Assembly (NCBI RefSeq): GCF_000375425.1
Contig: NZ_AQXG01000002.1
Span: 265,712 to 329,711 of the forward strand
Direction: 5' to 3'
From: Gracilimonas tropica DSM 19535
GTDB taxonomy: Bacteria > Bacteroidota > Rhodothermia > Balneolales > Balneolaceae
DNA: 64,000 nt
The first letter of the stretch is position 1. Every line of letters starts with the position of its first letter. A model generated the notes under the pieces. It was not told the origin of the DNA, searched no databases, and worked only from the letters and a program-made list of their open reading frames with translations. Both the position numbers and the translations under genes were made by a program. This document shows positions 17,550 through 63,088 of the stretch, one piece after another.

Positions 17550-18557
17550 TTAAAACTTAAGTGATACTCCTATTGTGTGAATATACCCCAACTCATTACG
17601 GTCACTCATCGCATAATCAATTGAGATCTTATCGATGGGTGATAATCCGACTCCGAAACGTAAATGACCTAATCCATAATTATCACTTATAAATAGATTA
17701 CTGTAACCGGCTCGCAGAAATAAGGTTTTTCTAAATGCATATTCAGCACCGGTATTTACGTAGTTGTTGTTGTTATTGGGATAAATGGCATCAGCAGCTA
17801 ATATTAACCGATGATCGATTGTTTTAATGAGCTCTGCATTCAACCCAATTCGAAACAGTAAAGGTAAATCCCAGTCTGAAGTCATTAGATTTGCCGGAAT
17901 TCCATCATTGTTGCCTGAATTATTGGGATCCAGGTCAACCGGTACGTAGGTATTGTCTCCACTGAGTTTCATCTCCCCACCGAAATTACTAATACTGAAA
18001 CCCAGCCTAACTCTCTCAAAAGGTGTTTTATACTGAAATCCAAGATCCAAGGCTAAAGTAGAAGCTTTCATCCTCCAGATCTGATTTTGTACGAACTTTA
18101 CGTTTCCTCCGATCCCAAAATTTTCAGTTAACTTTTGAGCATACGTTACACCAATACTTATATCCTGAACTGAAAACCTTTCACCTGTTCCATCCGGATA
18201 GGTTACTGTTCGAACATCCATCTCTCCGCCATCAAACATATATACACTGGCTCCGAGATAGATATCATCGAATTTAAAAACAGAAGCTGCATAATAGAGT
18301 TTGGTATCTACAAACCACTCGGTATTCTGAAATGTAGCCTGATTAGATTTTAGGTTTGTGACCCCAGCAGGATTCCAATAAAGCGCACTGATCTCATCAA
18401 CCACAGAAACATAGGCTTCCCCCATTCCAATACTTCGGGCACCAACCGGTATTTCAAGAAAGGACGATGCTGTAGTTCCTACCTGACTTTGGGCAAAAAC
18501 AGGCACCGAAAAAACTAAAAACAAAAATATGAATATGACCCTTTTGCTCATTTTCAT
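17550..18557 (-). CDS. PorV/PorQ-family outer-membrane barrel
   Basis: A 335-residue exported protein: signal peptide ending VFAQ, then 'SFLEIPVGARSIGMGEAYVSVVDEISALYWNPAGV', the classic N-terminus of the PorV/PorQ (FadL-like) group, then alternating amphipathic strands to a terminal F. PorV carries type IX secretion cargo to the attachment machinery; most paralogues beside TonB receptors have no assigned role. The gene follows the large surface-protein gene by 2 bases. A second ATG two codons in (18551) has AGGA at better spacing and may be the true start. A second homologue lies at 56723 in the same gene order. Confidence 0.82.
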   Translation of the reverse strand: MKMSKRVIFIFLFLVFSVPVFAQSQVGTTASSFLEIPVGARSIGMGEAYVSVVDEISALYWNPAGVTNLKSNQATFQNTEWFVDTKLYYAASVFKFDDIYLGASVYMFDGGEMDVRTVTYPDGTGERFSVQDISIGVTYAQKLTENFGIGGNVKFVQNQIWRMKASTLALDLGFQYKTPFERVRLGFSISNFGGEMKLSGDNTYVPVDLDPNNSGNNDGIPANLMTSDWDLPLLFRIGLNAELIKTIDHRLILAADAIYPNNNNNYVNTGAEYAFRKTLFLRAGYSNLFISDNYGLGHLRFGVGLSPIDKISIDYAMSDRNELGYIHTIGVSLKF

Positions 18558-18559
18558 TC

Positions 18560-21500
18560 CTATTTGATAATTGCAAATTTACCGGTCTTCTCGCCAATGC
18601 CCGGTGCTTTAACGTGATAGAAATACAATCCATAGGCTACCTCAAGTCCATCTTTGGATTGCAAGTCCCAAACTCCTACCCCGTCTTCAGCCTGAATCTC
18701 CCGAACGAAAACACCACTGTTGGTAAATATTCTGATGCTGGCATTCAGGGGTACATTTCGGAACTCTATTCGTTGCTCTCCCCTCCCGGATAAGAATGGG
18801 CGCTCTTCCACAATAGTAGCAGCTACGTAGGGATTTGGGACCACGATAATTTCATCCAGAATTGAAGAATCTGAAGTAGAATCTATGAATGAAGCAGTTG
18901 TAGTCAATCCATAGCGATCTTGCTGACTGAACGGTATTTGGGCGTTAAGTTCAAAAGAATCTCCCATTCCGGGGACATAAATTTGGTTTGCAGGCAGTTC
19001 TGCACCGGTTGCATCGACGGGTTTAAGAAATTTGATATTCCAGGCTATCACATAATCATCATCACCCGGTTCTTCTTTGAATAATAGCTGGATCAGTTCA
19101 TCTTGATCTATTCGTCCATTTTCGGTTGAATCCGGTTCATCAAAAATAAACTTGATCTCGTTACCCGTATTTTTTTCATATAACCTGAAATTGACGGGAA
19201 AAGAAAAGTTTCCGGAATCGGAGGTATAGGCAGAATCCAATACTTCCCCATCTCCGCCCACTTCCAATACAGCACGGATAGGCCAAACTGGAGGATTAGG
19301 AACAGAAAATGTTGGGTCCGGAAGGGTGACTTGTGTTCTCAGATTTGTTTCACTGTCAGTAGTCCAACCCGAATTTTGCTGCGTATTCGATTCATTGGGA
19401 TATTGATTCTCAAATTGCAGGATCAATCCTTCTTCCAAAAGCTCATAGGTCCAATTGGTGACAAACTCACCGTCAAGGTTCGTAGGGACCGGACTATTGT
19501 CTACAATTAAGTTGCCATTTTTATCGGTAATGCTAAATGCCGTGGTCTCATATTCAACAGCCGAGGTGTCATTCTGTGGATAAACCACCGGTTTTTGAGA
19601 AAAGGACAGGCTGTACTCCTGATCTTTGAGTAGATTTTCGTCAACTACCGAAGCCCTTACTGTTCCTGTTGCTTTCCCTGCATCCTGATCTACCCGTCCA
19701 CGGTTATCAACATCCAATGTACCTAAAACCACATTGCTTGCTTCCGGGTTGGGGCGAACCTCCACAGTATTTGGATCATAATTAGTAACCACTCCCTGGG
19801 TAACTGTTATGCTGGCAGGAGATTCAGATGGAGAGATCGGGAATAAGTTATCGAGGTCAGAAATACCACGATCGAAATAGGTTTCATCGTACCCGGCATC
19901 ATAAGCAATGAGGGCATAATAATAGGTTCTTCCGTTGATAACATCTTCGTCCACGAAAGAATGCTGAATTCCAGTATCCTCCCCCATATAGTAATGTACA
20001 CCATTGGGTATGCCAATCTCCTCGCCAAATTGGAGTTCATGGTATCCGGTAAGTCCATTAATTTTATCAAATTGAGCAATGGAACGCTTGTAGACTGAGT
20101 TTCCAAAGGAATCGGTAACATCTTCTGCATCATTGAACTGTGGATCGGTAGACTTAATGATCCGATATCCTTCAAAATCCTCCCCATAAACAGGATCTCT
20201 TGACACCTCTGATAGTTCATCCCAGATCAAGGTTACTTTTCCATCTCCCGGAATAGCTCGCAGGCGGGGCTGTCTTGGAGGAACCGCAAACCGATAATCG
20301 GAGTCGTAAATACGCTGAGCTACTGCTGCCGACCTAAACATGGCATCCTCATTAGCACCAAAAACAAAACTGGTAGAAAAACGCTGACTGGTATTTGGCG
20401 GGAGTTGAAAGGCGCCGGAACCAAAGATCCATATCTGGTTCACGCCCTGACTTGGTACATCAAAGAAGCCGGGTTGTACATTCGGCCAAACCGTTTCTTC
20501 GTCGTGAATGTTAACGGCTCCAAAAAGAGGAGCATAAAACGAGGTTAACCCAATTTGATCGGACTCATCATTATCTAATCGCCCAAAGTTTGGTTCTCCC
20601 TGATCTGGGCGCCCGTTTCCTTCTGAGCCATCTGCATCCGGGCCTGGATATCCATCCTGCTCCGGACCTATTCCATCCGAGCCTACATCATCGATAGATG
20701 CGTTCCAGTCACAGTCTTCATCTCCACTCCAGTGTTCTTGTGGATCATCATAGTTTCCACATGGGGCAAAAGCGAATGAACCTGCGTCATTATCACGGGA
20801 TTCATCCACAAGACCATCATTGTCATTATCGGTCAGGTCAAAATCCAATCCCGGACTTTCCAAAAACTTCCAGCCGATATATCCCGGTGCTATATCTCTG
20901 AATTGTGTCCATGATCCTTGCCCGGTGCTACTCCAACCATATACAATATCCTGGTTATTATCGAAGCCTGCAGCATCATCAGATGTACCTGCACCGGCTG
21001 GATTTACATCCGTATACCCTCCAAAAATAATTGGCTTATCATTGATGTCTGTTGTGTAGGTCTGATCGCCGATATTGGATACTTCATACTGCATAAACAG
21101 AATATCCTTCGCCAGCGCCTGCGACCACTGGAATACTCTTACCCGAACCTGCAATCCCAATCCTCCTTTGGTTGTATCTCCATCAACCGGGTAATATTCA
21201 TATTCTGTGTTTGACAGGTCATCCATTACATAGAAAACTTCCTGGTCAGCATTAAACTGGTTCAATCCAAAATAACCGTTCCAGTTACCATCCCATTCAG
21301 CACTTTGATCCGGCCAGGATTGAGGCCAACTGTCGGGATTTCTTGAGTTTGCAATTTCAGGTTCATCTGTATTTTGGTTAAAGTATCCCGGCAGGGGCTG
21401 AAATTTCCATCTTATATTGGTATTTGGATCTATATCACTAACATCACTGCTTGCACCATAGCCATCTGATATCACTGTGACCTCCTGCCCATCGACATCT

Positions 21501-21823
21501 TCTGTACGCGTCAGGATCATACCCGTCATTTCGTGTAAATGACCGTGACCGGTTCCTTTCGGCCAAACCCCAGCCTGATTTATACTTCCATTTCCATTTC
21601 CAACCGTACCCCAATTCGTGATGATGGACTCCACCTGATTCCCGGTTACATTAAAATCAACCCTGGAATCTTGTTCCCCCTCATTGGGATCTATGAAAAC
21701 CCCGGATTCGTTGGTCTGCGCTTTTACCACAAAGTTGAAGCTCATTACTATGACACACAGCAAACCTAACCTGGAGAGTTTTTGTGCCGCTTCTAAATTA
21801 TGGTTCAATCTTCTGATCTTCAT
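18560..21823 (-). CDS. Large surface protein of the TonB module, Asp-rich segment and PNPY end
   Basis: A 1087-residue exported protein whose family is not recognised. A long N-terminus (signal about residues 1-36, ending VVKAQ) leads to a 'WGTVGNGNGSINQAGVWPKGTG' stretch. Residues 327-423 are very rich in Asp, Asn and Gly (DNDNDGLVDESRDND), as in calcium-binding thrombospondin-3-like or dockerin-like loops. An FN3-like domain lies at about 515-680. The end (about 985-1087) has 'VVPNPYV' and a beta-sandwich closing YGLYFYHVKAPG...FAIIK, similar to the sorting-tail fold. It lies between the TonB receptor and the PorV-like gene, as does the 722-residue protein at 57736. It may be the substrate-binding partner of the receptor; this is inference. 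Confidence 0.72.
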   Translation of the reverse strand: MKIRRLNHNLEAAQKLSRLGLLCVIVMSFNFVVKAQTNESGVFIDPNEGEQDSRVDFNVTGNQVESIITNWGTVGNGNGSINQAGVWPKGTGHGHLHEMTGMILTRTEDVDGQEVTVISDGYGASSDVSDIDPNTNIRWKFQPLPGYFNQNTDEPEIANSRNPDSWPQSWPDQSAEWDGNWNGYFGLNQFNADQEVFYVMDDLSNTEYEYYPVDGDTTKGGLGLQVRVRVFQWSQALAKDILFMQYEVSNIGDQTYTTDINDKPIIFGGYTDVNPAGAGTSDDAAGFDNNQDIVYGWSSTGQGSWTQFRDIAPGYIGWKFLESPGLDFDLTDNDNDGLVDESRDNDAGSFAFAPCGNYDDPQEHWSGDEDCDWNASIDDVGSDGIGPEQDGYPGPDADGSEGNGRPDQGEPNFGRLDNDESDQIGLTSFYAPLFGAVNIHDEETVWPNVQPGFFDVPSQGVNQIWIFGSGAFQLPPNTSQRFSTSFVFGANEDAMFRSAAVAQRIYDSDYRFAVPPRQPRLRAIPGDGKVTLIWDELSEVSRDPVYGEDFEGYRIIKSTDPQFNDAEDVTDSFGNSVYKRSIAQFDKINGLTGYHELQFGEEIGIPNGVHYYMGEDTGIQHSFVDEDVINGRTYYYALIAYDAGYDETYFDRGISDLDNLFPISPSESPASITVTQGVVTNYDPNTVEVRPNPEASNVVLGTLDVDNRGRVDQDAGKATGTVRASVVDENLLKDQEYSLSFSQKPVVYPQNDTSAVEYETTAFSITDKNGNLIVDNSPVPTNLDGEFVTNWTYELLEEGLILQFENQYPNESNTQQNSGWTTDSETNLRTQVTLPDPTFSVPNPPVWPIRAVLEVGGDGEVLDSAYTSDSGNFSFPVNFRLYEKNTGNEIKFIFDEPDSTENGRIDQDELIQLLFKEEPGDDDYVIAWNIKFLKPVDATGAELPANQIYVPGMGDSFELNAQIPFSQQDRYGLTTTASFIDSTSDSSILDEIIVVPNPYVAATIVEERPFLSGRGEQRIEFRNVPLNASIRIFTNSGVFVREIQAEDGVGVWDLQSKDGLEVAYGLYFYHVKAPGIGEKTGKFAIIK
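20555..20845 (-). repeat. Asp/Asn/Gly-rich coding segment
   Basis: Codes for residues 327-423 of the large surface protein, dominated by D, N, G, E and P, with a Cys pair (CGNYDD...DEDCDW). It resembles calcium-binding loops rather than simple low complexity. Confidence 0.6.
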
Positions 21824-21834
21824 TAAAAACTGAA

Positions 21835-24483
21835 TTAAAAATTAAACTGAAGACCTGCCTTCAATAATCTGGGTGCAGGTTGCAAAACCGGATTGGTCAA
21901 ATAATCTCTTAAGGAATTAATTCGGCTATTCCCGTTTGAAATATGAGCTTCAATCTCTGATTCAAAAATCTTTGGTTCGCGGTCTTGTCGGTAAAAATTG
22001 AGCAAGTTTTCGGCCGTAAAAAATAGCTGGCCTGTAACCCCATAGAGCTCAACCCGATATCCTATTCTTAAATCCACGATAAATTCTGCATTGTAACGCG
22101 CCTGATTTCTGAGTACAGTGATATCATTCCGCTGTACATTTTCAGGAGTAAAGGGATAGCCGGTATGAAAAGTAGCCAACAGGCCAGCCGTAAGGTTGTT
22201 TTGTAAATAGGTCAAACTACCGGAAATATTATGTCGCTGATCCCAGCTTAAGGGAAGTAGCTGCCTTGTGGTCTCGTTATTTTGCTGTGCATTGAAAAAC
22301 GCCTGCTTAGGATCACTTGCATTTCCTTTTACTGACTGATAGGTGTAATTTACAGAACCCATTAAACCAATATCGGTTCTGATGTCGGTTGAAAAAGTGA
22401 TTCCACGAACGCGACCAAAGTCTGTATTCTCATACCGCCCCCAGGTATCTCCACCGGTTCTTGCTTCATACAAAGTAGTGCCAACCAATTCCCGGATATC
22501 CCGGTAATAGGCCGTTACATCTATGCCTACATAGTCTCCAATTTGTTGTTGCAGACCTATTTCATAAGTATTAGATCTCTGTGCATCCAGCCCTGCATTG
22601 CCAATAAATTGTGTGAAATTACTGGATTGCACTTCAAATTCAGGGTTTTCATATAAGCGGGAGTATTCCGGGATCTGAAAAAACTGGCCATAAGAAGCAT
22701 GGATAACTCCATTATCAGAGATAGGAAATGCAAAACCTATTCGGGGACTTAGTTGCCATTTTACTTCAGTGGCCCGGTATGCCTGATCTTCAGGAAGCCC
22801 TTCAGAGTTGGAAGGATCCCTAAGATCGGTGGGAACCGTACCCCGGGCATCAAAATAGTCGAACCGTAAACCTACATTTACGATCAGATCAGAGATCTCA
22901 ATTTTATCCTGAATAAAAGCAGCTGCTTCAATAGGGCTTTGATTATATTGGTTGTGTAGCCTTGAAGAAATAGGAGGAATGGTACGTTCAAGGTTATCAA
23001 CCCTTCTTGCCTGAATAAAAAATTCTTCGAAATCAAGCTCGTTGTATCTGAGTTCGATCCCTGTTTTAACCAGATGTTCGGTTCCAAACTGTCGGGTAAT
23101 ATCAAAGCGGGCTGCATAAGTGGAACTTGTTCTGTCTAAATAATAATTATCCACTCCACCGGTGTTAAATACGTTTGCAGGCTGATTATTTCTCCCGTCT
23201 ATGTATCTGTATTTCTCTGAAAAAGGGTCTTGATAATTATATTGTGAAAAGTCTGTGGTATAGGCTGTTAACCTAAGATTGTAAAAAGTGCGATCATTCA
23301 ATACATGATTTACCGTCAACAGATGATTGTAAGAAGTACTTCTTTGGGTCGGTAAATAATCCGGATTTAATCGGTAATTATGGCGGTAAAAATTAGACTC
23401 AGAGTTGGATCGGGTGAGTGAATAGGTAAACTTCAGATTATTGGTTAGCCTATAAGTAAGCTTTCCCATTGTTGTAAGTCCTTCCCTGGAATTCATGGGA
23501 ACTACTGAGGAATCTCCCGTTGACTCTATAATCCAATCGCTTGGGTTGTTTGATGAAAAGTCGGAAGAGTCGCTGGGTTGAAATACTCTTCTCCCAAATA
23601 ACCATCCCTCATTATTGGTGTATTTCAGGTTTGTAAAAAAAGTAAGTTTATTCTCAACAATTGGGCCTGAAAGAGAACCTTCATAACTTTGTTCCCCTAC
23701 ATAGGATGCCTCATCAATTTCGTAAAAATTATTAGGGTTTCCGGTTGCATAACTGCCAACGCTCCCTATAAATGTACCTTTAAACTCATCGCTACCATCA
23801 CGGGTTACAATATTGATAATACCACTGTTAGCTTGTCCATATTCAGCGTTGTAAGTTCCGCTAATGACTTCAACTTCTTGTATTGCAGAATTCTCTACTG
23901 GCGTGGCTAATGCATTACTGAATGGATTGGAAACAGCCACTCCATCTACATAATATTTGATTTCACTGCTTCGACCTCCCCGGATATGAAGAGATCCGTT
24001 TTCACTTTTAGATACACCGGCTTGTACCGATACCGTTTCTGTAAAATTATTAACGGGAAGGTTTAAGATCTCATCTCCACTTACTTTTGCTGATGCAGAG
24101 GTCTGATCTTTAGTGATCATTTTAGCATTGGCAACAATGGTAACTTCCTCCCCCTGAAAAGTTTCTTCCTGTAACTGGAAATCAATTTTCGTAGTTCTGT
24201 CAACAGAAACTTGTACTTCTTCAACCTTTACAGTTTTAAAACCAATCATGGATGCTACAAGCGTGTAAGTACCCGGACGTACATTGAGGATAAAGTAGTT
24301 CCCATCCACATCTGAGGCATTACCCTTTAATTCTCCTTCCAATACTACATTCACACCGGGAAGCGGGTTTCCTTCTACATCTGTTACTTTACCGGAGATT
24401 TTGCCTGTAGTTTGTGCAAAGCCACCAGTTATTGAAACAAAAAGAATGAAAATTGTAAGTAGAATACACCTTATGAAGCTCAT
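21835..24483 (-). CDS. TonB-dependent receptor (SusC-like plan)
   Basis: An 882-residue outer-membrane transporter. The ATG at 24483 has GGGGAGG five bases before it and begins a signal peptide (ending GGFAQ); the longer frame to 24501 adds six residues and lacks such a site. Next is a CarboxypepD_reg-like domain (KISGKVTDVEGNPLPGVNVVLEG), then a plug with 'LHIRGGRSSEIKYYVDGVAVSNPF', and a 22-strand-type barrel ending in the aromatic residue F. Such receptors import large ligands using TonB energy. The gene is second in the operon, 11 bases before the large surface-protein gene. No SusD gene is next to it or anywhere in the window. Confidence 0.9.
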   Translation of the reverse strand: MSFIRCILLTIFILFVSITGGFAQTTGKISGKVTDVEGNPLPGVNVVLEGELKGNASDVDGNYFILNVRPGTYTLVASMIGFKTVKVEEVQVSVDRTTKIDFQLQEETFQGEEVTIVANAKMITKDQTSASAKVSGDEILNLPVNNFTETVSVQAGVSKSENGSLHIRGGRSSEIKYYVDGVAVSNPFSNALATPVENSAIQEVEVISGTYNAEYGQANSGIINIVTRDGSDEFKGTFIGSVGSYATGNPNNFYEIDEASYVGEQSYEGSLSGPIVENKLTFFTNLKYTNNEGWLFGRRVFQPSDSSDFSSNNPSDWIIESTGDSSVVPMNSREGLTTMGKLTYRLTNNLKFTYSLTRSNSESNFYRHNYRLNPDYLPTQRSTSYNHLLTVNHVLNDRTFYNLRLTAYTTDFSQYNYQDPFSEKYRYIDGRNNQPANVFNTGGVDNYYLDRTSSTYAARFDITRQFGTEHLVKTGIELRYNELDFEEFFIQARRVDNLERTIPPISSRLHNQYNQSPIEAAAFIQDKIEISDLIVNVGLRFDYFDARGTVPTDLRDPSNSEGLPEDQAYRATEVKWQLSPRIGFAFPISDNGVIHASYGQFFQIPEYSRLYENPEFEVQSSNFTQFIGNAGLDAQRSNTYEIGLQQQIGDYVGIDVTAYYRDIRELVGTTLYEARTGGDTWGRYENTDFGRVRGITFSTDIRTDIGLMGSVNYTYQSVKGNASDPKQAFFNAQQNNETTRQLLPLSWDQRHNISGSLTYLQNNLTAGLLATFHTGYPFTPENVQRNDITVLRNQARYNAEFIVDLRIGYRVELYGVTGQLFFTAENLLNFYRQDREPKIFESEIEAHISNGNSRINSLRDYLTNPVLQPAPRLLKAGLQFNF

Positions 24484-24537
24484 TAATCCTCCCCTATACA
24501 TCCGGATGCAAAATGCACCCGGACAGCGGCTCCTTAT

Positions 24538-26688
24538 TTATTTGATAAGTGTCAGTTTTCTTGTAAGAATAGTTCCTGCAGCTTCCAGCCTATATAGGTA
24601 GATGCCACTTGAGAGATCGCTACTTGCATCAAAGCGGACAGTGTAGGTTCCTGCTTGTTTGCGTTCCTGAAGCAACGTGGCTACTTCTTGTCCCAGCACA
24701 TTATAAACCTTCAGCGTTACCTGTGAGGATTGCGGAATAGTAAACTGAATATTAGTACTCGGGTTAAAAGGGTTCGGGTAATTTTGCTTTAACTGTATGC
24801 TTTTAGGCAGGTCGGTTGCATACTCCGTTTCTTCTGTAGAAACTCCCACTTTTTCATTGGTTAAAACAATTTCACCACGCATCATAAAACTTTTGGAATC
24901 TCTCCAAAGTGAAGGTTTATTGCCTAATCTTAAAAAGCGGTTCGCAGTCCGAGCCCCTTCTCCCTCATCTTTATCTGTCAGATCTGCATCAAAAGAAATA
25001 ACCTTCCCGTTTTCAGGAACAAATAATGGCCATTCTAAACCAAAATATTCAGAACGGGTTCTTCGGTTATTAATTTGTCCTGCCAAACTTGAAAATGGAA
25101 GCTTCCACTCCATAATATATCCTGTTTCGTCAGGTGTTCTCACTGCAGCAGCTGAATTTCCCTTAAAGATTACAGTATCTACGTATGCGCCATTATAATC
25201 TTCAGGATCTACCGGTTCATCTCCATAAGGTAGCGCTCTGAGGGTTAGCTGGTAATCAGCGCCTCTGGTAGATTCAACATTGTCATATTCATCCGCTATT
25301 CGATAGGTTCGAGTAGCCGGAATAGTATCAGTGAAAGCCGAGTCTGTCCCTGCATTTCTAAAGTTATACATTTCGAATTCCCCTGCACCTTCAACATGCG
25401 GATTGGATGGAATATCACTGATATCATATAACCCTAAATACGCACTTAGGTGGTCATACTGAAAAGCTAAGTTTGGAGTATCCAATGTCTCTATCATAGG
25501 GGTACCTTCATCACGGACCCGAACTGCGAAGTAAATATTTGCTGTATCCATTTTAATGGCTAAATATCCGCTGAAGTCATCCGGAGAATCGGGTGTCCCC
25601 TGAATCAGAACCCAATTGGGAATATCCTGATTCACTGCCATAAAGGGTGCATCCAGCCAGTCGCTGAGATCGGCATCAATAGATACATCCTGAGATTCTT
25701 TATAATCTATACTGTACGTCCACCTTGGGGTATTATTTGGATTATTTGACATATCCACAACTAAACCCCGAAAACCAAATCTACTGGAAAAAGTATCCAG
25801 CCCGCCTCCGGTACCAAGTGTTAAACGCTCAGTATCAGGTGTCCCATTTGAAACTTCATCGGCATCTCCTATGGTCGCATCCAACGATATAACATCCCCA
25901 TCTTGAGGAGAATACAATGGCCATTCAAAGTTTGCAAAGTCCCCGGATTCGGCACCAAGCTTCCCCGCAAGAGATTCAAAAGGAACTTTCCATTCAAGGG
26001 TATATCCTTTTGAATCATCCCACAGAGAGGTTGCTACTTCGGTATTTGGGATTTCCGCATTTACATATCCGTAGTTATAAGTTATCGGAGAATCTGCCGC
26101 TCCATACTCTACAGCCCTTACTCCAATTTGGTAATCAGGACCTAAGGTAGTAGTAGTATTATCGTATTGAGGAGCGATTCTAAACGTTTTCCCTGTATAG
26201 ATCTGTTCATCAGAAACAGGATCTGTCAGACTATATCCCTCATCTGAGCTGAGTAATTCTGTGTGAGGATTCAGATAAGCATCAGGACCAATATCGTATA
26301 AGCCTAAGAAAACATTTAAATGATCATAGTTAATAAGATTTGCGGCATCGTCTGCATCTGATATCATGGGATTATTTTCATCTCTGACATTCATCGCAAA
26401 GTATATATTACTCTCATCCATCTTAACAGCAAACCATCCACTTGCATCTGTAGGTGCGGAAGGATATTGACCTGAATTTTGTGTTGGATTGATAATCTGA
26501 TATGCAGGATGATCAACACTTAAATAAACCCATTGCGCATCACTCCAATCCTCAAGACTGCCATCTACAGTGACCGTATCGCCATTCAACGCCACCCTAT
26601 AAAGGTTGTCTACTGCCGGAGATTGGGCATGTAAAACAGTCGTCATTAATATTAGTGTAAAAACCGTTGATAGTAGCTTGTTTATCAT
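24538..26688 (-). CDS. Secreted twin CBM9-like protein with sorting tail
   Basis: A 716-residue protein if started at the ATG at 26688 (GAGG six bases upstream); the frame to 26700 begins with GTG. A signal peptide ends at VLHAQ. Two homologous domains (about 30-310 and 315-625) each start with 'D-LSDW-DA' / 'DGSLEDWSDA' and repeat 'SGWFAVKMDESNIYFAMNVRDEN-PMI', 'YDHLNVFLGLYDI', 'YTLEWKVPFESLAGKL' and 'EWPLY-P--GDVISLDA'. This is the CBM9-like/DOMON-like fold used for glycan binding. A PNPFNP tail follows. As first gene of the operon, directly after the divergent promoter, it probably coats the cell and captures polysaccharide. No enzyme domain is present. Confidence 0.83.
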   Translation of the reverse strand: MINKLLSTVFTLILMTTVLHAQSPAVDNLYRVALNGDTVTVDGSLEDWSDAQWVYLSVDHPAYQIINPTQNSGQYPSAPTDASGWFAVKMDESNIYFAMNVRDENNPMISDADDAANLINYDHLNVFLGLYDIGPDAYLNPHTELLSSDEGYSLTDPVSDEQIYTGKTFRIAPQYDNTTTTLGPDYQIGVRAVEYGAADSPITYNYGYVNAEIPNTEVATSLWDDSKGYTLEWKVPFESLAGKLGAESGDFANFEWPLYSPQDGDVISLDATIGDADEVSNGTPDTERLTLGTGGGLDTFSSRFGFRGLVVDMSNNPNNTPRWTYSIDYKESQDVSIDADLSDWLDAPFMAVNQDIPNWVLIQGTPDSPDDFSGYLAIKMDTANIYFAVRVRDEGTPMIETLDTPNLAFQYDHLSAYLGLYDISDIPSNPHVEGAGEFEMYNFRNAGTDSAFTDTIPATRTYRIADEYDNVESTRGADYQLTLRALPYGDEPVDPEDYNGAYVDTVIFKGNSAAAVRTPDETGYIMEWKLPFSSLAGQINNRRTRSEYFGLEWPLFVPENGKVISFDADLTDKDEGEGARTANRFLRLGNKPSLWRDSKSFMMRGEIVLTNEKVGVSTEETEYATDLPKSIQLKQNYPNPFNPSTNIQFTIPQSSQVTLKVYNVLGQEVATLLQERKQAGTYTVRFDASSDLSSGIYLYRLEAAGTILTRKLTLIK

Positions 26689-26730
26689 ATCATTCCTCAC
26701 TCATTATCGTTGTTAAAAACTCAATGTTCA

Positions 26731-26748
26731 TTATGTATATAATTTATG
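26731..26748 (-). promoter_or_regulatory. Candidate operator near the CBM9-like gene
   Basis: TTATGTATATAATTTATG, two TTATG units, 43 bases upstream of the operon's first gene. The core ATTATGTATATAAT is nearly palindromic. It is a candidate site for the GntR/LacI regulator. Confidence 0.35.
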
Positions 26749-26918
26749 CCCAATGAGCCCTCTCATTATATTTAACTGTTTTGAGTTTGTCAATTCATTA
26801 AAGAATAATTTTTTTTGGTTATTTTTGAGTGTTAAAAGCTAAAAAAGCGGTTACAATTTTAATTCTAAAATCTTGTAACTACCTTAAGTCTAAAAGGTTA
26901 AATTGCCCCTTAAGCTGA

Positions 26919-26953
26919 TTATGAATACATAAATAACTATTATGCACTTTATG
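26919..26953 (+). promoter_or_regulatory. Candidate operator pair before the GH38 gene
   Basis: Two adjacent elements: TTATG-AATA-CATAA (26919-26932), an inverted repeat with perfect 5-bp arms, and TTATGCACTTTATG (26940-26953). The second matches TTATGCACATTATG at 33594 in 13 of 14 bases. The pair lies just upstream of the probable -7 box, where a repressor would block transcription. Confidence 0.45.
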
Positions 26954-26992
26954 ACCTTTTTATTACATTTACCCAAAATTTAAAACCCCCAA

Positions 26993-29680: not shown

Positions 29681-29681
29681 C

Positions 29682-31367: not shown

Positions 31368-31378
31368 GACCGAATTAA

Positions 31379-35346: not shown

Positions 35347-35362
35347 GAACTTAATCTATAGC

Positions 35363-50918: not shown

Positions 50919-50957
50919 ATCGAAGGGTTTTGAATTATTTCTTAAAGTGCAGAAAAA

Positions 50958-53953: not shown

Positions 53954-53984
53954 GTCACACAATAGTTTATTTTTTCCAAAGGAT

Positions 53985-54018
53985 AAAAAAAAAGGCAGCA
54001 CATTAGCTGCCTTTTTTT
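53985..54018 (-). terminator. Bidirectional-looking terminator before the GHL10 gene
   Basis: AAAAAAAGGCAGC pairs with GCTGCCTTTTTTT across a 6-base loop. On the minus strand it ends with a T-run 18 bases after the stop of the upstream propeller gene, separating the five-gene TonB operon from the three-gene GHL10 operon. Confidence 0.92.
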
Positions 54019-54035
54019 GTAAAAGTTCGTTGCTG

Positions 54036-55415: not shown

Positions 55416-55476
55416 GAGTTCTCCTATTTCTTAGTTATTGTTAGTATGGGTTATACCCATTTTCTTTGACGATAAT

Positions 55477-56721
55477 TTACAATCCGTATAAAGTAGATCG
55501 CTCTTTATCAAACATATCAATTTTGTTTAGTAAAAGTGTTCCATTTGCACCTGATCTTCTTGCACCAATTATAAAACCTTCCTCATCCCATACAAGTGAG
55601 TAATAATTGTCTTGTAGCACATACTGATAAAAAGGTAACACTTTACCGGTTTCAGTAACCTTTAAAATTCCATAATCTCCATCAACAATTCCTAAGTACA
55701 TGTTCCCTTCAGAGTCAAAATTAATTGCTCTAATCATGCCTTGATACTTACCAGAAAGATTTAAAATCTCAGAAGCATTTCCCAAATTTCCAGTTCCATC
55801 AATTGGGAACATCCATACTTTTTGTTCAACCGATCCAGGTTCATTACCTGCAACATATAATTTGTTCTCATAGACAAATACTGATCTTAAGTTTGCAGTA
55901 AAAGAATAACGCTTAATAGATTTATCAGAAAATGTAAATCTATATATATTAGTATTATTCCCTACTACCCATATGTGACCAATTCCGTCAAATACTAAGT
56001 CATAAAATTTTGCACCCTCATTAAGTGGAGGATATGCCCATACTTCATCAATTGTTCCTTCCGGATTACCTCCTGGAGGCATTCTGAATATGGCAGCATT
56101 TGGCGTTTCCGGCGATATAAGATATAAACCTCCATCAGGACCAAATTTTGCACCAGTGTAATTGCCAAATCTAGTAGTATCTGAATAAACTGAAACTTGA
56201 CCATTTTTTGTGATTTTTCTGAATTTGACACTACCTTGGATATCTATTCTGCCATAAATGCTTTCATCTGCATCAATTGCAAAAACTGAGACAGGTCGAT
56301 AATTATCTGATAAACCAGGATGATTTGTTTCTGCGGAATCCAAAGTATAACTAAAACTGTTACTAAAATATTCAGCTCCTCTTACAGATACTCGAACATC
56401 CAAATTATCACCTGTCTTGTAACCAGGTCTTACTATTAACTCTCGACTGGAAGCTCTTTTAATAACTCCTGGAGCTCCTCCAAAATTAATAGTCATACTA
56501 TCAATATCACTTGAAAAATTTTCTCCCCTCACTATTACTGAATCCACCCCAGCTAAATAACGCCCTTCAGGAAGTATATTTGTAATGACTGGATTTGGTT
56601 TTGATGGCTCATAGTCGGGATCAAATACGCTGTTTCCATTTTTACAGGAAACTACACCTAATGTTAATATAGCTATTAATGTTATTCGCGAAATCATTTT
56701 TGAATTTATACGTAATTTCAT
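55477..56721 (-). CDS. IPT-domain beta-propeller lipoprotein
   Basis: A 414-residue lipoprotein: lipobox LTLGVVSC (Cys 26). Residues about 42-128 are an IPT/TIG Ig fold ('PVITNILPEGRYLAGVDSVIVRGENFSSD'), and 140-414 are NHL/SMP-30-like blades ('TGAKFGPDGGLYLIS', 'YDLVFDGIGHIWVVG', 'RAINFDSEGNMYLGI'). IPT lipoproteins with propellers are common next to SusC/D systems, where they act as surface glycan-binding proteins (a SusE/F-like role). It follows the PorV-like gene by one base with AGGA upstream of its ATG. It is visibly AT-rich compared with the gene before it. There is no counterpart in the first TonB operon. Confidence 0.78.
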   Translation of the reverse strand: MKLRINSKMISRITLIAILTLGVVSCKNGNSVFDPDYEPSKPNPVITNILPEGRYLAGVDSVIVRGENFSSDIDSMTINFGGAPGVIKRASSRELIVRPGYKTGDNLDVRVSVRGAEYFSNSFSYTLDSAETNHPGLSDNYRPVSVFAIDADESIYGRIDIQGSVKFRKITKNGQVSVYSDTTRFGNYTGAKFGPDGGLYLISPETPNAAIFRMPPGGNPEGTIDEVWAYPPLNEGAKFYDLVFDGIGHIWVVGNNTNIYRFTFSDKSIKRYSFTANLRSVFVYENKLYVAGNEPGSVEQKVWMFPIDGTGNLGNASEILNLSGKYQGMIRAINFDSEGNMYLGIVDGDYGILKVTETGKVLPFYQYVLQDNYYSLVWDEEGFIIGARRSGANGTLLLNKIDMFDKERSTLYGL

Positions 56722-56722
56722 T

Positions 56723-57727
56723 TTAAAATCCTATTTGAGCACTAAATCTGTTCACTTCTCCGAATACACCGAACTGTGTATAAGCATAATCGATGCCAAG
56801 CGTAAGCGGACCGATCGGTTGTTTTATACCGGCACCGAATGAAAATTGCTCCTCATCTTTTGGAAAACCGTATCCGGCCCGCAGAACAAATCGGTCTATA
56901 AAAGTGTATTCCATTCCAAACAACAGCTGTTCGTCATAATCTCTGGGTCGGTTGGCATCTATACTGACGAGCAGAGAATGATTATCAGGATCTACATCCG
57001 TCAAGTCCAGAACATCCATTGAAATCCCGATCTTGAAGGTCAGCGGTAATTCAGATTTTTCATCGTCGTAACTAATTTCCGGAGAGAAATTTCTCAGTGC
57101 CATCCCAAAGTTCAGGCTTTCAAACCCGGTTTTATAAAGCACTCCAAAGTCGAGAAGCCCTGTACCGGCAGAAAATGATTGGGTGGCGTAATTTCCGTTA
57201 CCATCTGTGCTAACTGCAACTTCGCCTAAATTCTGATAGCTGTAACGAAAGTTAGCACCCACAGAAAATTGTTCGGTTATGGCATTGGCGTAGGATAAAC
57301 CCACAGCAAAAGCCGTTGGGTTTATGGTTCCAAGCTCCACATAACCATCCTCATTATCAGCCAAAGCCGTGGACAAGATATCCCCGTAATCAACGGACAT
57401 AGCGTTTACTCCGATCACACCAAATTTCCCATCGGCGGGTTTGTAAACAAAAGCCGCTGAGTTATGATTGATATCGGCGATCCACTCTACCGCGCCTACC
57501 GTAGCTGTGTAAGATCCTTCAATGAAAGCCATAGTCGCCGGATTATAAAAAGCAGAATAAGCTCCCATATTAACGGTTGTGGCAGCACCGGAAAGAGCTG
57601 AAGCTCTTGCTGACGGTGAAACGCTTAAAAATTTCATACTTGTTTGCGCCCTTTTTTCCTGTCCGAAAACATTGGTCGCAAAAAAGAGACTAACTAAACT
57701 GATTAAGAAAACTTTAAAGAATCTCAC
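56723..57727 (-). CDS. PorV/PorQ-family outer-membrane barrel (second copy)
   Basis: A 334-residue exported protein. The start is GTG at 57727, supported by AGGTG five bases upstream and a signal peptide (ending NVFGQ). 'MKFLSVSPSARASALSGAATTVNMGAYSAFYNPATMAFIEG' is the PorV/PorQ N-terminus, followed by barrel strands to a final F. It stands 8 bases after the 722-residue protein gene, mirroring the arrangement of the PorV-like gene at 17550. The two copies are distant in sequence, so they are not a recent duplication. A type IX shuttle role or a partner role to the TonB receptor are both possible. Confidence 0.82.
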   Translation of the reverse strand: MRFFKVFLISLVSLFFATNVFGQEKRAQTSMKFLSVSPSARASALSGAATTVNMGAYSAFYNPATMAFIEGSYTATVGAVEWIADINHNSAAFVYKPADGKFGVIGVNAMSVDYGDILSTALADNEDGYVELGTINPTAFAVGLSYANAITEQFSVGANFRYSYQNLGEVAVSTDGNGNYATQSFSAGTGLLDFGVLYKTGFESLNFGMALRNFSPEISYDDEKSELPLTFKIGISMDVLDLTDVDPDNHSLLVSIDANRPRDYDEQLLFGMEYTFIDRFVLRAGYGFPKDEEQFSFGAGIKQPIGPLTLGIDYAYTQFGVFGEVNRFSAQIGF

Positions 57728-57735
57728 TTTTACAC

Positions 57736-59904
57736 CTATAATATGATTACGATTTTTCTTGTAGCTACACTTCCAAATTCATCGTCATTAGGATCCTCAT
57801 TAATGATCCTTGCGATGTAGACACCACTTACTATTCGCTGCCTTGAATTGGTTTTAAGGTTCCAATACATGTCACCGCTTCCGTTTTCATTGGAAATGGT
57901 TGTGATCAACTCACCAAGTTCTGTATAAATTTCAACGGTACACTGTGCAGGAACTTCATAGAAAGCAATACGATCGTCATCAGCCTGGTTACCGAATCTT
58001 AAAGCATCCGGTGAATTTGCCCTGTATGGATTAGGAGCTACCCGAATTTCTTCCATTGATTCCCCTGCCGGTCGCAATAAGCGAGCCGGTTCGAAACTCT
58101 GCATGTAATACCGATTACTTACCAAAGGCTGACCGGTTGGTGTTTGTCCTGTAGCATCACTATTGACCGACCCAACACTCTGGATATAGTAGTAATAATC
58201 TCTGCCTCGAATTGGAGGGGGAAGTTTAAATTCCGGTCCCCGATCCACATCACCATCTATGATAACCCTTTCTTCTGAAGATGCTTCATAAAGTAAACGA
58301 TAAGTACTGTCTACCCGCCCGGAAGCGCGGTAGATCCTGAAACCGGTCAGATCGGAAGCATCGCCTTCAAAATCCCAATTTAACTCAATACCGTTACCGG
58401 CTGAGATTACATTGAACAAGCTTGGCGGTTGAGGGCCTTGCGGAATGTCATACCCTGACTCGTAATTCGCGATGGCTCTTTCAAATGTTTGAAATAAGGA
58501 ATCACGGCCTGTAAAAACCCATTCATTTTTCGTGAACTCGTAATCGGTACCATTAATGGTATATGGAATTTTAACATTGTTTTCGTCAACACCGGGATCT
58601 TCAGCGGCTTGTTTAAATGCACGCCCCACTTCTTCCGCTAATTCTCGGGATATTCCAGCTGAAGCTTCTGCTATCACGATCCTTACGGTTTCACCGGGTG
58701 CAATTGTGTAGGGTCCATAACCATAAGTGTACGCCTGACCACCTCCCTCTCCTAAAGAAGGATCACTGGTAGAATTTATAAAGTCTCCGCTGGGTTCAAC
58801 GGTATAGGCATGTCGGGGAACACGGCCTCTGGTCATCAGATCATACTCGTCGGACATTTTTGTCACGTTGAACGCATCGTTGTTACTATAAAGCGGGTCA
58901 TCATTATGTTCGTAAGCCATGGTTGAAGGCTGCCCCGGATCATCGGTCTCATCGGTTGCTGAAGCATCAGCATGAAGCGTTACAGTTCCCACAAAGTGAT
59001 AAGCCGCCAACCTCCCGGTAGTATCATCAGCGGTTAGATAGCCCCCGGTAGTATTGGGTACAAAAATAGGAGCTCCAATATTGTTATAATTAGCCGTAGC
59101 AAAACTTGGAAAATATCCGTGCCAGGCAAAAGAAGCTCTGAAATTTTCCGGTTCGCTGGGTCGTAAACCATCTCCCCTTCTATCATTCATAGTATTAACT
59201 CCCCATCCAGTGGCGTTTCCAATAGTATAACGGGAAGCTTTAACAGGAGCCATTCGGTTCAGGAAGTAGGCTACAAAACCTTCAACCGTTTGATTAGGCA
59301 ATTCAATTTCATCATCATCATCGATATTACCGGTATTGGTAAACTCGTATTCAATGATATGATAGTTGTCATGGTACTGCTGACTGAATTGCATAGCCGT
59401 TCTCTTAACGGTAATACCGAGCAGGGTATTCATTTCAGATACTATCGCACGGTCGGCAGCCATGTTTTCATCAATACGATCATTATTGACACTTTTACTG
59501 ATCGACTGCAAACCATCCACAAATACTTCAGGGGCCGGAAACTTACTTACCGTTTCCATACTGATAGGATAAAATTCACCGAGACCGGTCACTCGCGGGC
59601 CCACATGAACAACTCGTTCAGCATAATCAAAGCCCCTTTCATCCGTAAAATCAGTTACACCAAGCCACATTCCTTTCATGGCCTGGGCATCCTGCCCTCT
59701 GTAAATAGCCGGCCATTGCCAGCCACCTTGTTGTTCATTGATAAATCCCTCTTCAATTTCCGATCCTATATTGGAATAAAAATTGTGAAAAGATCCTACA
59801 GATAGCCATCTATTTTCAACCTGAGCGTTCGCGGAATGAGGCAAGCCTATAATTCCAACTAACAAAAAGGCACAGGTTATTTTGAATATACTTTTATTAC
59901 TCAT
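57736..59904 (-). CDS. Large surface protein of the second TonB module, PNPY end
   Basis: A 722-residue protein with signal peptide ending ANAQ. It opens with a domain carrying 'NRWLSVGSFHNFYSNIGSE', followed by a long unassigned region with several acidic and Gly-rich stretches, an FN3-like domain (about 490-600) and an end with 'EEIRVAPNPYRAN' and a beta-sandwich closing VSGVYIARIINED...KIVIIL. It occupies the same slot as the 1087-residue protein at 18560 (receptor, surface protein, PorV) and shares its PNPY end and FN3 domain, but lacks the Asp-rich segment. It may be the binding partner of the receptor. No family name can be given. Confidence 0.72.
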   Translation of the reverse strand: MSNKSIFKITCAFLLVGIIGLPHSANAQVENRWLSVGSFHNFYSNIGSEIEEGFINEQQGGWQWPAIYRGQDAQAMKGMWLGVTDFTDERGFDYAERVVHVGPRVTGLGEFYPISMETVSKFPAPEVFVDGLQSISKSVNNDRIDENMAADRAIVSEMNTLLGITVKRTAMQFSQQYHDNYHIIEYEFTNTGNIDDDDEIELPNQTVEGFVAYFLNRMAPVKASRYTIGNATGWGVNTMNDRRGDGLRPSEPENFRASFAWHGYFPSFATANYNNIGAPIFVPNTTGGYLTADDTTGRLAAYHFVGTVTLHADASATDETDDPGQPSTMAYEHNDDPLYSNNDAFNVTKMSDEYDLMTRGRVPRHAYTVEPSGDFINSTSDPSLGEGGGQAYTYGYGPYTIAPGETVRIVIAEASAGISRELAEEVGRAFKQAAEDPGVDENNVKIPYTINGTDYEFTKNEWVFTGRDSLFQTFERAIANYESGYDIPQGPQPPSLFNVISAGNGIELNWDFEGDASDLTGFRIYRASGRVDSTYRLLYEASSEERVIIDGDVDRGPEFKLPPPIRGRDYYYYIQSVGSVNSDATGQTPTGQPLVSNRYYMQSFEPARLLRPAGESMEEIRVAPNPYRANSPDALRFGNQADDDRIAFYEVPAQCTVEIYTELGELITTISNENGSGDMYWNLKTNSRQRIVSGVYIARIINEDPNDDEFGSVATRKIVIIL

Positions 59905-59935
59905 TTGAATTCTTTTGTTGTTACTGCTCGGTTAA

Positions 59936-62900
59936 TTAAAACGAAAACCTAATTCCAAATCGAATAGTACGTGGGTCAAGGAAGTGGAAGAATTCCTGAT
60001 TCGGCATATTTATGTATGCTTTATCATCCAAAACATCATTTACGTAGCCGTTATCGGCTTCAACGAACGTCCCATTCTGATACTGATAATACACCCCGCT
60101 TTGGGTATCGTAGTACAATGCTCTTCCGTTTGGCGAAGCAATATTATTTAAGTCGGGAGTTGCTTCAATGGGTACATATTCTACACCGGCCGGACGGTAG
60201 TCGCCCACCTTGTCACTTCCGGGTACTCTGGAATTAAGTAATCCAATTTCTTCTAACTTATTCTTAGGTAAGTGCAGGGAACCCATGTAATCCAGGTAGT
60301 CATTACCATCAATTAAGCCGGCATTGAATACATTGAAATTTCTGGTATTCAGTACGTTACTGATATCAGCAAAGAACTTGATATTAGAGCCATCATTGAA
60401 ATCTACCCGTTTGGTAAGTCGCAGGCTTGTGGTCCATACATCGCGAGCCTGCAGGTTATTTACAATACCTGGAATAGAACCTCCTCCGGTGTATGTAAGG
60501 CGCTGACCGGCTCTCCAGTTAACCAAAGGTACGATCTGCCATCCACCTAAAGGATTGGTACCTAATAATCTTGGACCAAAATCATATGGGGTCTGGAAGT
60601 AGAGCTGTAATCGAGCAAATGGGCGAGGAACCGGGCGAGTGATATCATTATCATTAGTTGTTCGCTCATAATTACGCTGGTCAAATGGGTTTTCATAATT
60701 GACGAGCGTGCCAAAAAATCCACGTGATTCGATATGGTAGGTATAATTAACCTCACCCCAGAAGAAACGGCCTGCTTGTTTTCTGAGGGTAAACTCTAAT
60801 CCCCGAATGTCTTCGTAAGAAAATGGCCGGCTGACCGAATAGGAATCACTTCCATTTCTTGCCACGTAGCCTACCGTTATAGGCTGATTTATAAGATCTT
60901 TGTAGTAACCACTGACACGTACCAAGTAATTATCAAAAATATTCTGTTCGTAGCCCAATTCATAAGCAATGGTTTTCGGTAATTTATTCTCAGGAGCAGC
61001 CACCCGGGTCACCGTATTTGTGAAAGGCTCAACCCGTACCAAGTACAAGTTTTCCGGATCAGGTAGCTGAACAAAATGTCCGTAGTTAAAGAACAGCTTA
61101 CTGTTATCCGTAATTGGGAAAGAAACCCCCAATCGTGGCTGTAACACAACTTGTGGACTCACATCAGAAGTAGCAGCCGTGTCTAATGCTGAGGCATTTC
61201 CGGTATTAAACAGATCGGTAAATGGCTCATAATCATACCATGCGATATTGGGATCTGAATAGGTTAACCGCAGCCCCAGGTTTGCGATCATCCCGTTGAA
61301 TTCCATCTTATCCTGTACAAATAAAGCTCCCCGTAAAGGTGTGGTATCCCAAACGGATCGAGTTCTTCCGGACCGCAAGACTTTATCAAAAGATCCGTAA
61401 TTCACTTTACTGTGTGTGCGTACAAACTCAAAACCGGCTTTAACAAGGTTCACGCGGTCAACCTGACTGGTAATAGCAAAGCTGGTATTCAATACAGATA
61501 TCTCACTGCTGTCGCGCGAGGTACTCATTCCAACTCCCATACGCATTCCTGACGCAACCCCGAACGATGTCTCATCATAGAATCCAAAGGGAGCTTCAGA
61601 AAAGCCTACCCCACCGATGGTGTAAACATCCGAAGTATCCCTGAAAGCACCGGGATTGGTGCTGTTACTGGTGAAATAATTGTTCACCTTAACTTCGTAG
61701 AATGTGTTGTTATTAATCGAATGAGTGAACTGAGCACCAATGTTGGCATTTACTCTTTCAGAGGGAGCCCAATAGTCGGAAGCATATATCCTTGATTCAA
61801 TGTAACTCACTTGATCCATATTGGAAGCGATTCCCGAAGGGGATACAAAAAATCCCGGATTTCCGGACTGACTTGCACCGGTTCCGGTTTCATTACTGTA
61901 CATACCATCTATGGATAGTTTCATTCCCGGAGCAACATTGCTGGTCAATTTACCCTGAAACGTTCGCTGCTTGTATCGATCTCTGGAAAGAGGAACCATA
62001 TACATGGTTTGCGTTTCACGGAAAGAGGCAGAAAAACGAAGATCCCCTAACTTCTCACTGATCACCGGAACGGGCCCTCCTATAGTAAGGTCAACTTCAT
62101 AGTCCGGCTCGGTGATAGCCATATCTTTTCTGTGCTGATATAAAAATGCTTGTTGAGCCGCTTCAGGAGTCAGGTCATTATTTGGATCATCATCACCCAA
62201 AAGCTGCTGAGAAAATGCATTCCACCCCATAAATGCAGGATAAGTTTCCTGAGTATATTGATCCCAAGCCCCATTATTGGTTCCGGTCCAGGCTACTTCA
62301 TCATCAAGGAAAGGACGCAACCAGTATGAGTTAGGATCATTGATCCTTTGGCCTACATTTTTTTGCTGAGGCGGGGTAATTCGAAAAATACCATCAACCG
62401 TATAACGGTCTCTGCTCCCCTCCTTACTGGTAACATTGATCACACCGGACCGGATGTTTCCATACTCGGCATTGAATCCCCCGGTTTGAACCTGAACATT
62501 TTCAATAGAGGTAACACTAATGCCCGTGAAAGGTGTATTATCTCGCTCGGAACGCAGGGAAAAACCATTCAGGTTAAATGCAACCTCATCGGCCCCACTA
62601 CCCCGAATACTTAAACCATCTTCAATTCCTGCTTGTAAACTAACCACTTCGTTTACACTGGTTACCGGAAGTGCATCAATACTTTCCTCACTTATGTTTG
62701 CCTGACTGGAAGAAACATCCTTTTTCACCACCGGTTGCCGGGCTGTTACCACAACCTCTTCACCTTCCAGGGTTTCCTCCCTCATTTCAATATCTACTTC
62801 CGTAGTAAGGTTTATATTCACTTCCACATTTTCTATTACCACCGGAGTAAAGCCCACATACGTAGCTTTTAAAGAATAAATGCCGGCATTGACATTTAAT

Positions 62901-63088
62901 ATCTGGTAGTACCCATCCACTGCGGATGAGGTTCCTTGTGTGGTTCCCTCAATAATGATATTCACACCCGGTAAAGGCTCCCCGTTTTCATCGGTTACAA
63001 AACCGGTGATCTTACCGGTTTGGGCGAAAGCGAGATGAGAATAAATGAAGCCTAAAAAGAGAAGAGATAGTAACTTTTTCACATCCAT
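59936..63088 (-). CDS. TonB-dependent receptor (second copy)
   Basis: A 1050-residue outer-membrane transporter with signal peptide ending AFAQ, a CarboxypepD_reg-like domain (KITGFVTDENGEPLPGVNIIIEG, about 25-110), a plug (VSLQAGIEDGLSIRGSGADEVAFNLNGFSLRSERDN, here split by text, about 150-190) and a barrel ending FGIRFSF. It is first of a five-gene operon: receptor, surface protein, PorV-like barrel, IPT lipoprotein, propeller. It has an ATG without a good ribosome binding site and a long upstream region with a possible LacI-type operator. As at 21835, no SusD neighbour is present. Confidence 0.9.
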   Translation of the reverse strand: MDVKKLLSLLFLGFIYSHLAFAQTGKITGFVTDENGEPLPGVNIIIEGTTQGTSSAVDGYYQILNVNAGIYSLKATYVGFTPVVIENVEVNINLTTEVDIEMREETLEGEEVVVTARQPVVKKDVSSSQANISEESIDALPVTSVNEVVSLQAGIEDGLSIRGSGADEVAFNLNGFSLRSERDNTPFTGISVTSIENVQVQTGGFNAEYGNIRSGVINVTSKEGSRDRYTVDGIFRITPPQQKNVGQRINDPNSYWLRPFLDDEVAWTGTNNGAWDQYTQETYPAFMGWNAFSQQLLGDDDPNNDLTPEAAQQAFLYQHRKDMAITEPDYEVDLTIGGPVPVISEKLGDLRFSASFRETQTMYMVPLSRDRYKQRTFQGKLTSNVAPGMKLSIDGMYSNETGTGASQSGNPGFFVSPSGIASNMDQVSYIESRIYASDYWAPSERVNANIGAQFTHSINNNTFYEVKVNNYFTSNSTNPGAFRDTSDVYTIGGVGFSEAPFGFYDETSFGVASGMRMGVGMSTSRDSSEISVLNTSFAITSQVDRVNLVKAGFEFVRTHSKVNYGSFDKVLRSGRTRSVWDTTPLRGALFVQDKMEFNGMIANLGLRLTYSDPNIAWYDYEPFTDLFNTGNASALDTAATSDVSPQVVLQPRLGVSFPITDNSKLFFNYGHFVQLPDPENLYLVRVEPFTNTVTRVAAPENKLPKTIAYELGYEQNIFDNYLVRVSGYYKDLINQPITVGYVARNGSDSYSVSRPFSYEDIRGLEFTLRKQAGRFFWGEVNYTYHIESRGFFGTLVNYENPFDQRNYERTTNDNDITRPVPRPFARLQLYFQTPYDFGPRLLGTNPLGGWQIVPLVNWRAGQRLTYTGGGSIPGIVNNLQARDVWTTSLRLTKRVDFNDGSNIKFFADISNVLNTRNFNVFNAGLIDGNDYLDYMGSLHLPKNKLEEIGLLNSRVPGSDKVGDYRPAGVEYVPIEATPDLNNIASPNGRALYYDTQSGVYYQYQNGTFVEADNGYVNDVLDDKAYINMPNQEFFHFLDPRTIRFGIRFSF

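Follow-up and report, generated by a model that had tools for sequence, protein, structure and literature searches.

A recurrent gene trio of TonB-dependent receptor, PNPY-tailed surface protein and PorV-family barrel in Gracilimonas tropica and other genomes: a candidate outer-membrane uptake unit

The capture of glycans in Bacteroidota is, in textbook terms, the work of SusC/SusD (SusCD) complexes. A different set of surface assemblies has been described around the type IX secretion system (T9SS). Here, PorZ and PorU of P. gingivalis are reported to retain their C-terminal domains (CTDs) (PMC11285876), and the barrels PorQ and PorV are described as holding PorZ and PorU, respectively, at the surface (PMC5562754). 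A review has proposed that cognate PorV-like barrels may shield CTDs such as that of PorZ from cleavage (PMC10202324). Here, we describe a trio of genes, encoding a TonB-dependent receptor, a large surface protein with a PNPY tail and a barrel of the PorV/PorQ family, that occurs twice in a stretch of 64,000 nucleotides (the window) of Gracilimonas tropica DSM 19535 (contig NZ_AQXG01000002.1, positions 265,712 to 329,711). The gene unit is conserved over 21 family labels, the CTDs of its surface proteins are homologous, its barrel belongs to the PorV family, no sign of SusD accompanies it, and its parts co-diverge within single genomes. Searches of titles and abstract openings, with most subscription journals outside their coverage, found no published account of such a trio.

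Two trios and their conservation

Both trios lie on the minus strand in the order receptor, surface protein, PorV-family barrel. In module 1, the receptor TBDT1 (21835-24501; CarboxypepD_reg, Plug and barrel) is followed after 11 bases by SURF1 (18560..21823), a mostly beta protein of 1087 amino acids with a signal peptide-like N-terminus and a CTD at 18560..18898 that carries the motif VVPNPY, and after 2 further bases by PORV1 (17550..18557). The start of TBDT1 at 24483 given in an earlier note on this DNA (21835..24483) is the second in-frame Met, an ATG; the longer frame begins at 24501. In module 2, TBDT2 (59936..63088; CarboxypepD_reg and Plug), SURF2 (57736..59904; 722 amino acids, with a body, an FN3-like part and a CTD at 57736..58074 carrying VAPNPY) and PORV2 (56723..57727) are separated by 31 and 8 bases. 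The two triplets of identical order and 2-31 base spacing described in that note are thus confirmed.

A phylum sample of 296 genomes, searched at E 1e-3, gave SURF1 matches in 134 genomes and SURF2 matches in 141, tallies that include weak matches, many of the SURF2 ones to the C-terminal part only. Presence is patchy: SURF1 was matched in five of seven genomes of the same genus, and the remaining two (G061 and G159) carry neither SURF1 nor SURF2. Sixty loci from other genomes (40 SURF1, 20 SURF2) were picked among the matches for family spread and not at random, and represent the 21 family labels. In 56 of them the receptor, surface protein and barrel are consecutive on one strand and within 600 bases. 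The other four have a single gene separating receptor from surface protein (L108), the end of the contig (L114), a barrel recognised by eye in an over-long reading frame (L110) or a small gene before the barrel (L131), and none of these is a real loss of the trio. A named collection, the best 80 of 204 SURF2 loci, bears record titles that include Balneola, Rhodothermales, Ignavibacteriales, Melioribacteraceae, Caldithrix and KSB1, among others, and 68 of these 80 are strict trios. The remaining 12 comprise four loci cut by contig ends (L175, L188, L190, L208), two orphans (L158, L169) and six with one extra gene of about 320 amino acids between the parts (L186, L204, L206, L209, L211, L214). 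This inserted gene of the module 2 row, present in those six loci and in L131, mostly has a lipoprotein-like N-terminus, and the two copies scanned gave no Pfam family above its cut-off. Measured from the last sense codon, the gaps have medians of 20 and 13 bases (17 and 10 after the stop) over 163 triplets whose last 250 residues are distinct, and no natural fusion of any of the three parts was found in the fetched loci. Moreover, the two window modules share one contig in G127, G065 and G013, with 24 to 43 kb between match starts.

Searching with the CTD alone leads to the same arrangement. A profile of 52 PNPY CTDs, run on seven whole genomes (the window's own, G065, G191, G112, G179, G124 and G236), gave 38 matches of at least 75 bits. 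A PorV-family gene comes next within 1.5 kb in 36 of these strong matches (within 400 bases in 35), and a CarboxypepD_reg receptor stands directly upstream in at least 35; since 36 of the 38 precede a PorV-family gene, the order of the trio is not a product of chance. None of the 38 has within 10 kb a SusD gene of PF07980, the one SusD Pfam model used in the genome-wide search. Each of the seven genomes has between 2 and 11 complete trios, with diverse bodies, and the bodies of the trios at L264, L265 and L274 match neither the SURF1 nor the SURF2 profile, so that the CTD, barrel and receptor emerge as the constant parts and the body as the part that varies.

A second tier of matches, at 51 to 59 bits, consists of one protein per genome, the product of an L003-type operon in all seven genomes. 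These matches are split in two pieces and, scored as whole proteins, reach 74 to 86 bits in six genomes, the own genome excluded; the boundary between the tiers is therefore partly a matter of scoring. Beyond the two window trios, contig C1 of the window's own genome carries one more that is complete (L002), and contig C23 this rearranged fourth set (L003), in the order PNPY-tail protein, type A tail protein, 525-amino-acid protein with a lipoprotein-like N-terminus, receptor and barrel. This fourth operon (L003:4663-18000 and six other genomes) encodes a PNPY protein of about 700 amino acids, with the barrel 7-8 kb and the receptor 6-7 kb downstream. Overall, the trio is very likely an operon unit, and its conservation, which the earlier note had named as a check, is borne out by the fetched loci, the named loci and the strong CTD matches alike.

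Receptor, surface body and the proposed uptake unit

The T9SS export, CTD retention, CTD-barrel docking, receptor contact and ligand that we infer would combine into one outer-membrane uptake unit per trio. The surface protein would exit the periplasm through the T9SS, steered by its PorZ/PorU-like CTD, which would stay uncleaved and dock on the loops of the adjacently encoded PorV-family barrel. Such docking would keep the protein at the cell surface with no need of a lipid anchor, and the variable body would capture a ligand and hand it over to the product of the gene directly upstream, the TonB-dependent receptor, which would pull it through with TonB energy. We consider this explanation, taken whole, to be on balance probable. 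The role of lid or ligand binder is suggested by the near-constant TonB partner, the within-genome co-divergence and the frequent glycan-gene neighbours, and we think it more probable than not that receptor and surface protein cooperate in capturing the ligand.

As the earlier note had stated, no SusD-like gene is found nearby: the 30 window open reading frames scanned with Pfam (39 of at least 150 amino acids are in the window list) contain no SusD domain. One T9SS type A tail protein in the window (8781-11399) carries a SusE domain. SURF1 and SURF2 gave no SusD Pfam match at E 0.1, their predicted structures are mostly beta (mean pLDDT 77 and 80), and none of the 50 Foldseek matches listed for each model is a SusD; the surface proteins thus give no hint of the SusD fold that the earlier note had named as a refuting result. 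The window receptors, in turn, reach 75 and 71 bits on the SusC/RagA family TIGR04056, far under its cut-off of 368. Since the SusD and SusC family tests were both negative, the trio is not a member of the SusC/SusD family, and in the proposed scheme works like one. PF07980 also matches three SusD genes of the own genome, of which one is on another contig and two share the window's contig at a distance of over 100 kb. For all the textbook standing of SusCD, PF07980 has no match anywhere in G124 and G236, which both lie outside the class of the window and yet hold four and eight trios, respectively; in one of the eight in G236, a small gene separates surface protein from barrel. The notion of a SusC/D alternative suits these two genomes, but in the remaining five trios occur along with PF07980 SusD genes.

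The function of the bodies was also sought by fold search, which returned FN3-rich and beta-supersandwich matches (GH94, GH65 and GH116 types) whose query-normalised TM-scores of at most 0.20 were not taken as proof. Kinship between the SURF1 and SURF2 bodies was not upheld, as hhalign of the whole profiles aligned the CTD only (probability 99.1, E 1.4e-18, 102 columns).

To what extent the parts have evolved together can be read from pairwise distances between paralogues, compared within single genomes so that species phylogeny is removed. In G179 (11 trios) the co-variation is 0.69 for CTD and barrel, 0.76 for body and receptor and 0.71 for barrel and receptor; the corresponding values are 0.55, 0.73 and 0.66 in G236 (8 trios) and 0.72, 0.86 and 0.81 when 16 trios drawn from five genomes are pooled. 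In permutation tests, none of the observed values was reached in more than 13 of 1000 runs. Body and receptor form the top co-varying pair in G236, and are second to CTD and body in G179. It follows that the parts of a trio travel together, which does not imply contact between them.

In another reading, the parts are co-expressed and work separately, the surface protein as an enzyme or adhesin exported by the T9SS and held by the barrel, and the receptor importing the products alone, with no touching. Pairs of CTD protein and barrel with no adjacent receptor fit this picture (L006, PorU-PorV of the own genome and what are likely its equivalents in the other six), as do the weak likeness of the bodies to beta-supersandwich parts of glycan enzymes and the L003-type operon, in which, throughout the seven genomes, several kb separate surface protein and receptor. 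However, the receptor stands directly upstream of at least 35 of the 38 strong CTD proteins, body and receptor are among the most strongly co-varying pairs, and Pfam at E 0.1 gave no catalytic domain in either body, and we regard separate working as unlikely.

The C-terminal domain and its barrel

Both surface proteins end in PNPY tails, unlike the neighbouring tails of the window, which read NYPNPFN. This difference, already pointed out in the earlier note, is reflected in the type A tail model TIGR04183 (cut-off 23), under which SURF2 stays with 18.5 bits (21.7 in the genome search) and to which SURF1 gives no match at E 0.1. The SURF1 and SURF2 CTDs are homologous to each other and related to those of PorZ and PorU. 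They match the NCBIfam PorZ C-terminus at E 6.9e-5 and 5.8e-5, and two other copies at 1e-5 and 1.6e-6, all far under the whole-protein cut-off of that model; Foldseek found PorZ (5m11) with the SURF1 and SURF2 models alike, and the SURF1 profile matches PorU weakly (E 0.27). The barrels score 190 and 199 bits on the PorV/PorQ family NF033709, above its cut-off of 90, and at most 113 bits on the PorV and PorQ equivalogs, under their cut-offs of 220 and 250; the PORV2 profile matches the solved PorV structure 6h3i at E 2.5e-17. In the own genome PorU, PorV and PorQ are found above their NCBIfam cut-offs at other places, and the trio barrels are extra copies, since PorV and PorQ proper sit elsewhere.

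In 188 fetched stretches, a barrel comes next in 151 of 159 distinct PNPY-type tails; two are close to the stretch end, and six are without an adjacent barrel, which is in an over-long frame in L110, 8 kb on in L003 and not found nearby in L149, L170, L249 and L169. The distinct type A tails of the same stretches are followed by a barrel in two of 247 cases (PorU and a 529-amino-acid protein in L006), with 40 close to where the stretch stops and 205 with no barrel next. The own genome has 60 type A tails above the cut-off, and PorU alone among them precedes a PorV-family gene, as judged by coordinates; by NCBIfam names, PorV lies directly after PorU, in the order seen in the trios. Six other whole genomes hold a protein of 1294-1417 amino acids with a weak CTD match, followed by the top-scoring PorV-family gene, and these were assigned as PorU/PorV counterparts by length and by place, not by family model. 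In the three cases in which a SURF2-like body carries a type A tail (L158, L231, L238), there is no barrel or receptor close by. A simple lipobox pattern is present in five of the 163 surface proteins. Weak-CTD proteins followed by a PorV-like barrel were also seen at L006:9413-12998 (the 529-amino-acid protein) and, with about 2400 amino acids, near 3668400 on G191 C1 and 2968700 on G112 C1. By analogy with PorZ-PorQ and PorU-PorV, and in keeping with the type A-tailed orphans, the barrel may well act as the surface holder that the earlier note had envisaged, and it is likely that it holds an uncleaved CTD.

If the surface proteins were instead ordinary T9SS cargo, the PNPY tail would be a variant type A tail, cleaved as usual, and the barrel a spare PorV. 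The last strand of the CTD does retain a basic residue like type A tails (K or R near the end in 162 of 163 triplets), but type A tails rarely precede a barrel, as counted above, and each of the seven genomes already has, besides the trio barrels, one PorV-family barrel at 321-345 bits, the next best reaching 242; this explanation is disfavoured and quite improbable. An aid to assembly, with barrel and surface protein helping to fold or insert the receptor much like BamG and BamH within the BAM complex of Bacteroidota, is suggested by a weak BamG match of PORV1 (E 5.9e-5) and by the description of BamG as a FadL-family barrel holding a surface subunit (PMC12611786, PMC12578637), but is very improbable given 22 bits against a cut-off of 250 (190 bits for the PorV family) and BamG and BamH being core subunits of one machine, whereas trios number several per genome with diverse bodies.

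Neighbouring genes, likely ligand and comparison with known systems

Beyond PORV2, module 2 continues on the minus strand with an IPT/TIG protein that has a Cys near its N-terminus and is likely a lipoprotein (55477..56721), a type A T9SS tail protein (54036..55415) and a GHL10 enzyme with a type A T9SS tail (51980..54001), a row with homologues in 71, 65 and 48 of the 80 named SURF2 loci, respectively. A GHL10 enzyme of C. difficile is described as a peptidoglycan lytic transglycosylase (PMC6016235), and another GHL10 protein as starch-acting (PMC9967864). Module 1, also on the minus strand, is flanked by a CBM9-like protein with a type A tail directly upstream of TBDT1 (24538..26700; same position in G127, G065, G013, G034 and G223) and, after PORV1, by a sugar regulator of GntR-LacI type (16433..17545; same position in G127, G065 and G223, with Pfam on the G127 copy). 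Around and between the modules are NamZ, two Amidase_3 proteins, a NagB-type deaminase, an AmpG-like carrier of the AmpG family, a GH3 of NagZ type that narrowly misses its cut-off and, also under their cut-offs, proteins like NagX and NagK; of these, NamZ, the GH3, amidases and the AmpG-like carrier are in the interval between the two modules. Because of the module 2 row and these NamZ, GH3, amidase, AmpG and Nag-type genes, peptidoglycan or amino-sugar fragments may be the ligand in the window, a guess to which we give somewhat less than an even chance. The region 4677-55415 as a whole is a long peptidoglycan/amino-sugar recycling cluster, also with a NagX-like protein, a sugar kinase, NagB-PIG-L, three GHL10 and two NAGPA genes, and its gene order is largely preserved in G127 and G065.

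For trios other than the SURF2 type, 45 genes just after the barrel were surveyed (25 of 47 families are listed, and proteins may count repeatedly). The families listed include GH16 (6), malectin (6), CBM20 (5), GH3 (3), CBM48 (3) and GntR-type sugar regulators (3); Amidase_2 (3) would suit peptidoglycan, and 17 of the 45 genes have a type A tail. Other trio copies probably serve other glycans, and some neighbourhoods give no such sign.

Several observations weigh against the uptake unit. Among the 38 strong CTD matches, two tandem G124 proteins (1056 and 1057 amino acids, L276:6344-12793) have a PNPY-type CTD with neither barrel nor receptor beside them, and one G112 protein has a barrel and no receptor of its own. 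In the fetched stretches, four PNPY-tail proteins (L149, L170, L249, L169) have no barrel of their own nearby, among them the orphan L169, whose PNPY tail is contrary to a strict tail-barrel rule. Trio members supplied the sequences of the CTD profile, and its 75-bit line was drawn with the matches already in view; with both tiers taken together, an adjacent barrel is found in 36 of 45 proteins, and one within about 8 kb in 43. Further, block duplication of genes would also give co-divergence, and much of what follows the barrel has no link to glycans (among others, rotamase in 4 cases, lamin tail in 3 and 3-hydroxyisobutyrate dehydrogenase-like in 2). The trio is known here from its genes, so contact within any pair is a proposal, and with bodies so diverse and fold matches so weak (the TM-scores given above), ligand binding too is something we infer. 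Overall, the interpretation put forward in the earlier note is partly supported.

It is an even question whether the trios form a separate and widespread class of TonB uptake complexes, with a ligand-binding subunit exported by the T9SS and clamped by a dedicated PorV-family barrel, not by lipid. By record titles, such a class would spread over Balneolota, Rhodothermota, Ignavibacteriota and some further lineages. If the proposal is true, anchoring by private PorV-family barrels, which shield the CTD from PorU, would be a principle of general use and PorZ-PorQ one of many such pairs, and the trios make the CTD-protection idea proposed in the review (PMC10202324) testable in many independent pairs. 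Should the trios be uptake complexes, nutrient import would be linked to protein secretion, and many unnamed surface proteins would gain names and hypotheses.

Among known systems, the trio resembles SusC/SusD in having a TonB receptor with an N-terminal CarboxypepD-like domain whose gene neighbours that of a large surface protein, frequently within clusters of glycan genes. It differs in a surface subunit that is not SusD, is mostly without a lipobox, ends in a T9SS-type CTD and has a PorV-family barrel partner, and in receptors far under the SusC/RagA cut-off. The BtuB/BtuG system for vitamin B12 uptake likewise joins a TonB receptor to a non-SusD surface lid, but BtuG is a lipid-anchored beta-propeller for which we noted no barrel partner in PMC10404256. 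PorZ-PorQ and PorU-PorV of the T9SS attachment complex share the pairing of a related-CTD surface protein with a PorV/PorQ-family barrel, and PorU-PorV in the own genome also the gene order of surface protein and barrel, whereas the complex as described in PMC5562754 is without a TonB receptor and serves cargo sorting. Finally, type B CTD proteins and their PorP/SprF shuttles are described as having a cognate barrel, often encoded directly downstream (PMC12618676); the trio differs from these in combining a CTD of the type A/PorZ kind with a PorV-family barrel and a TonB receptor in one unit.

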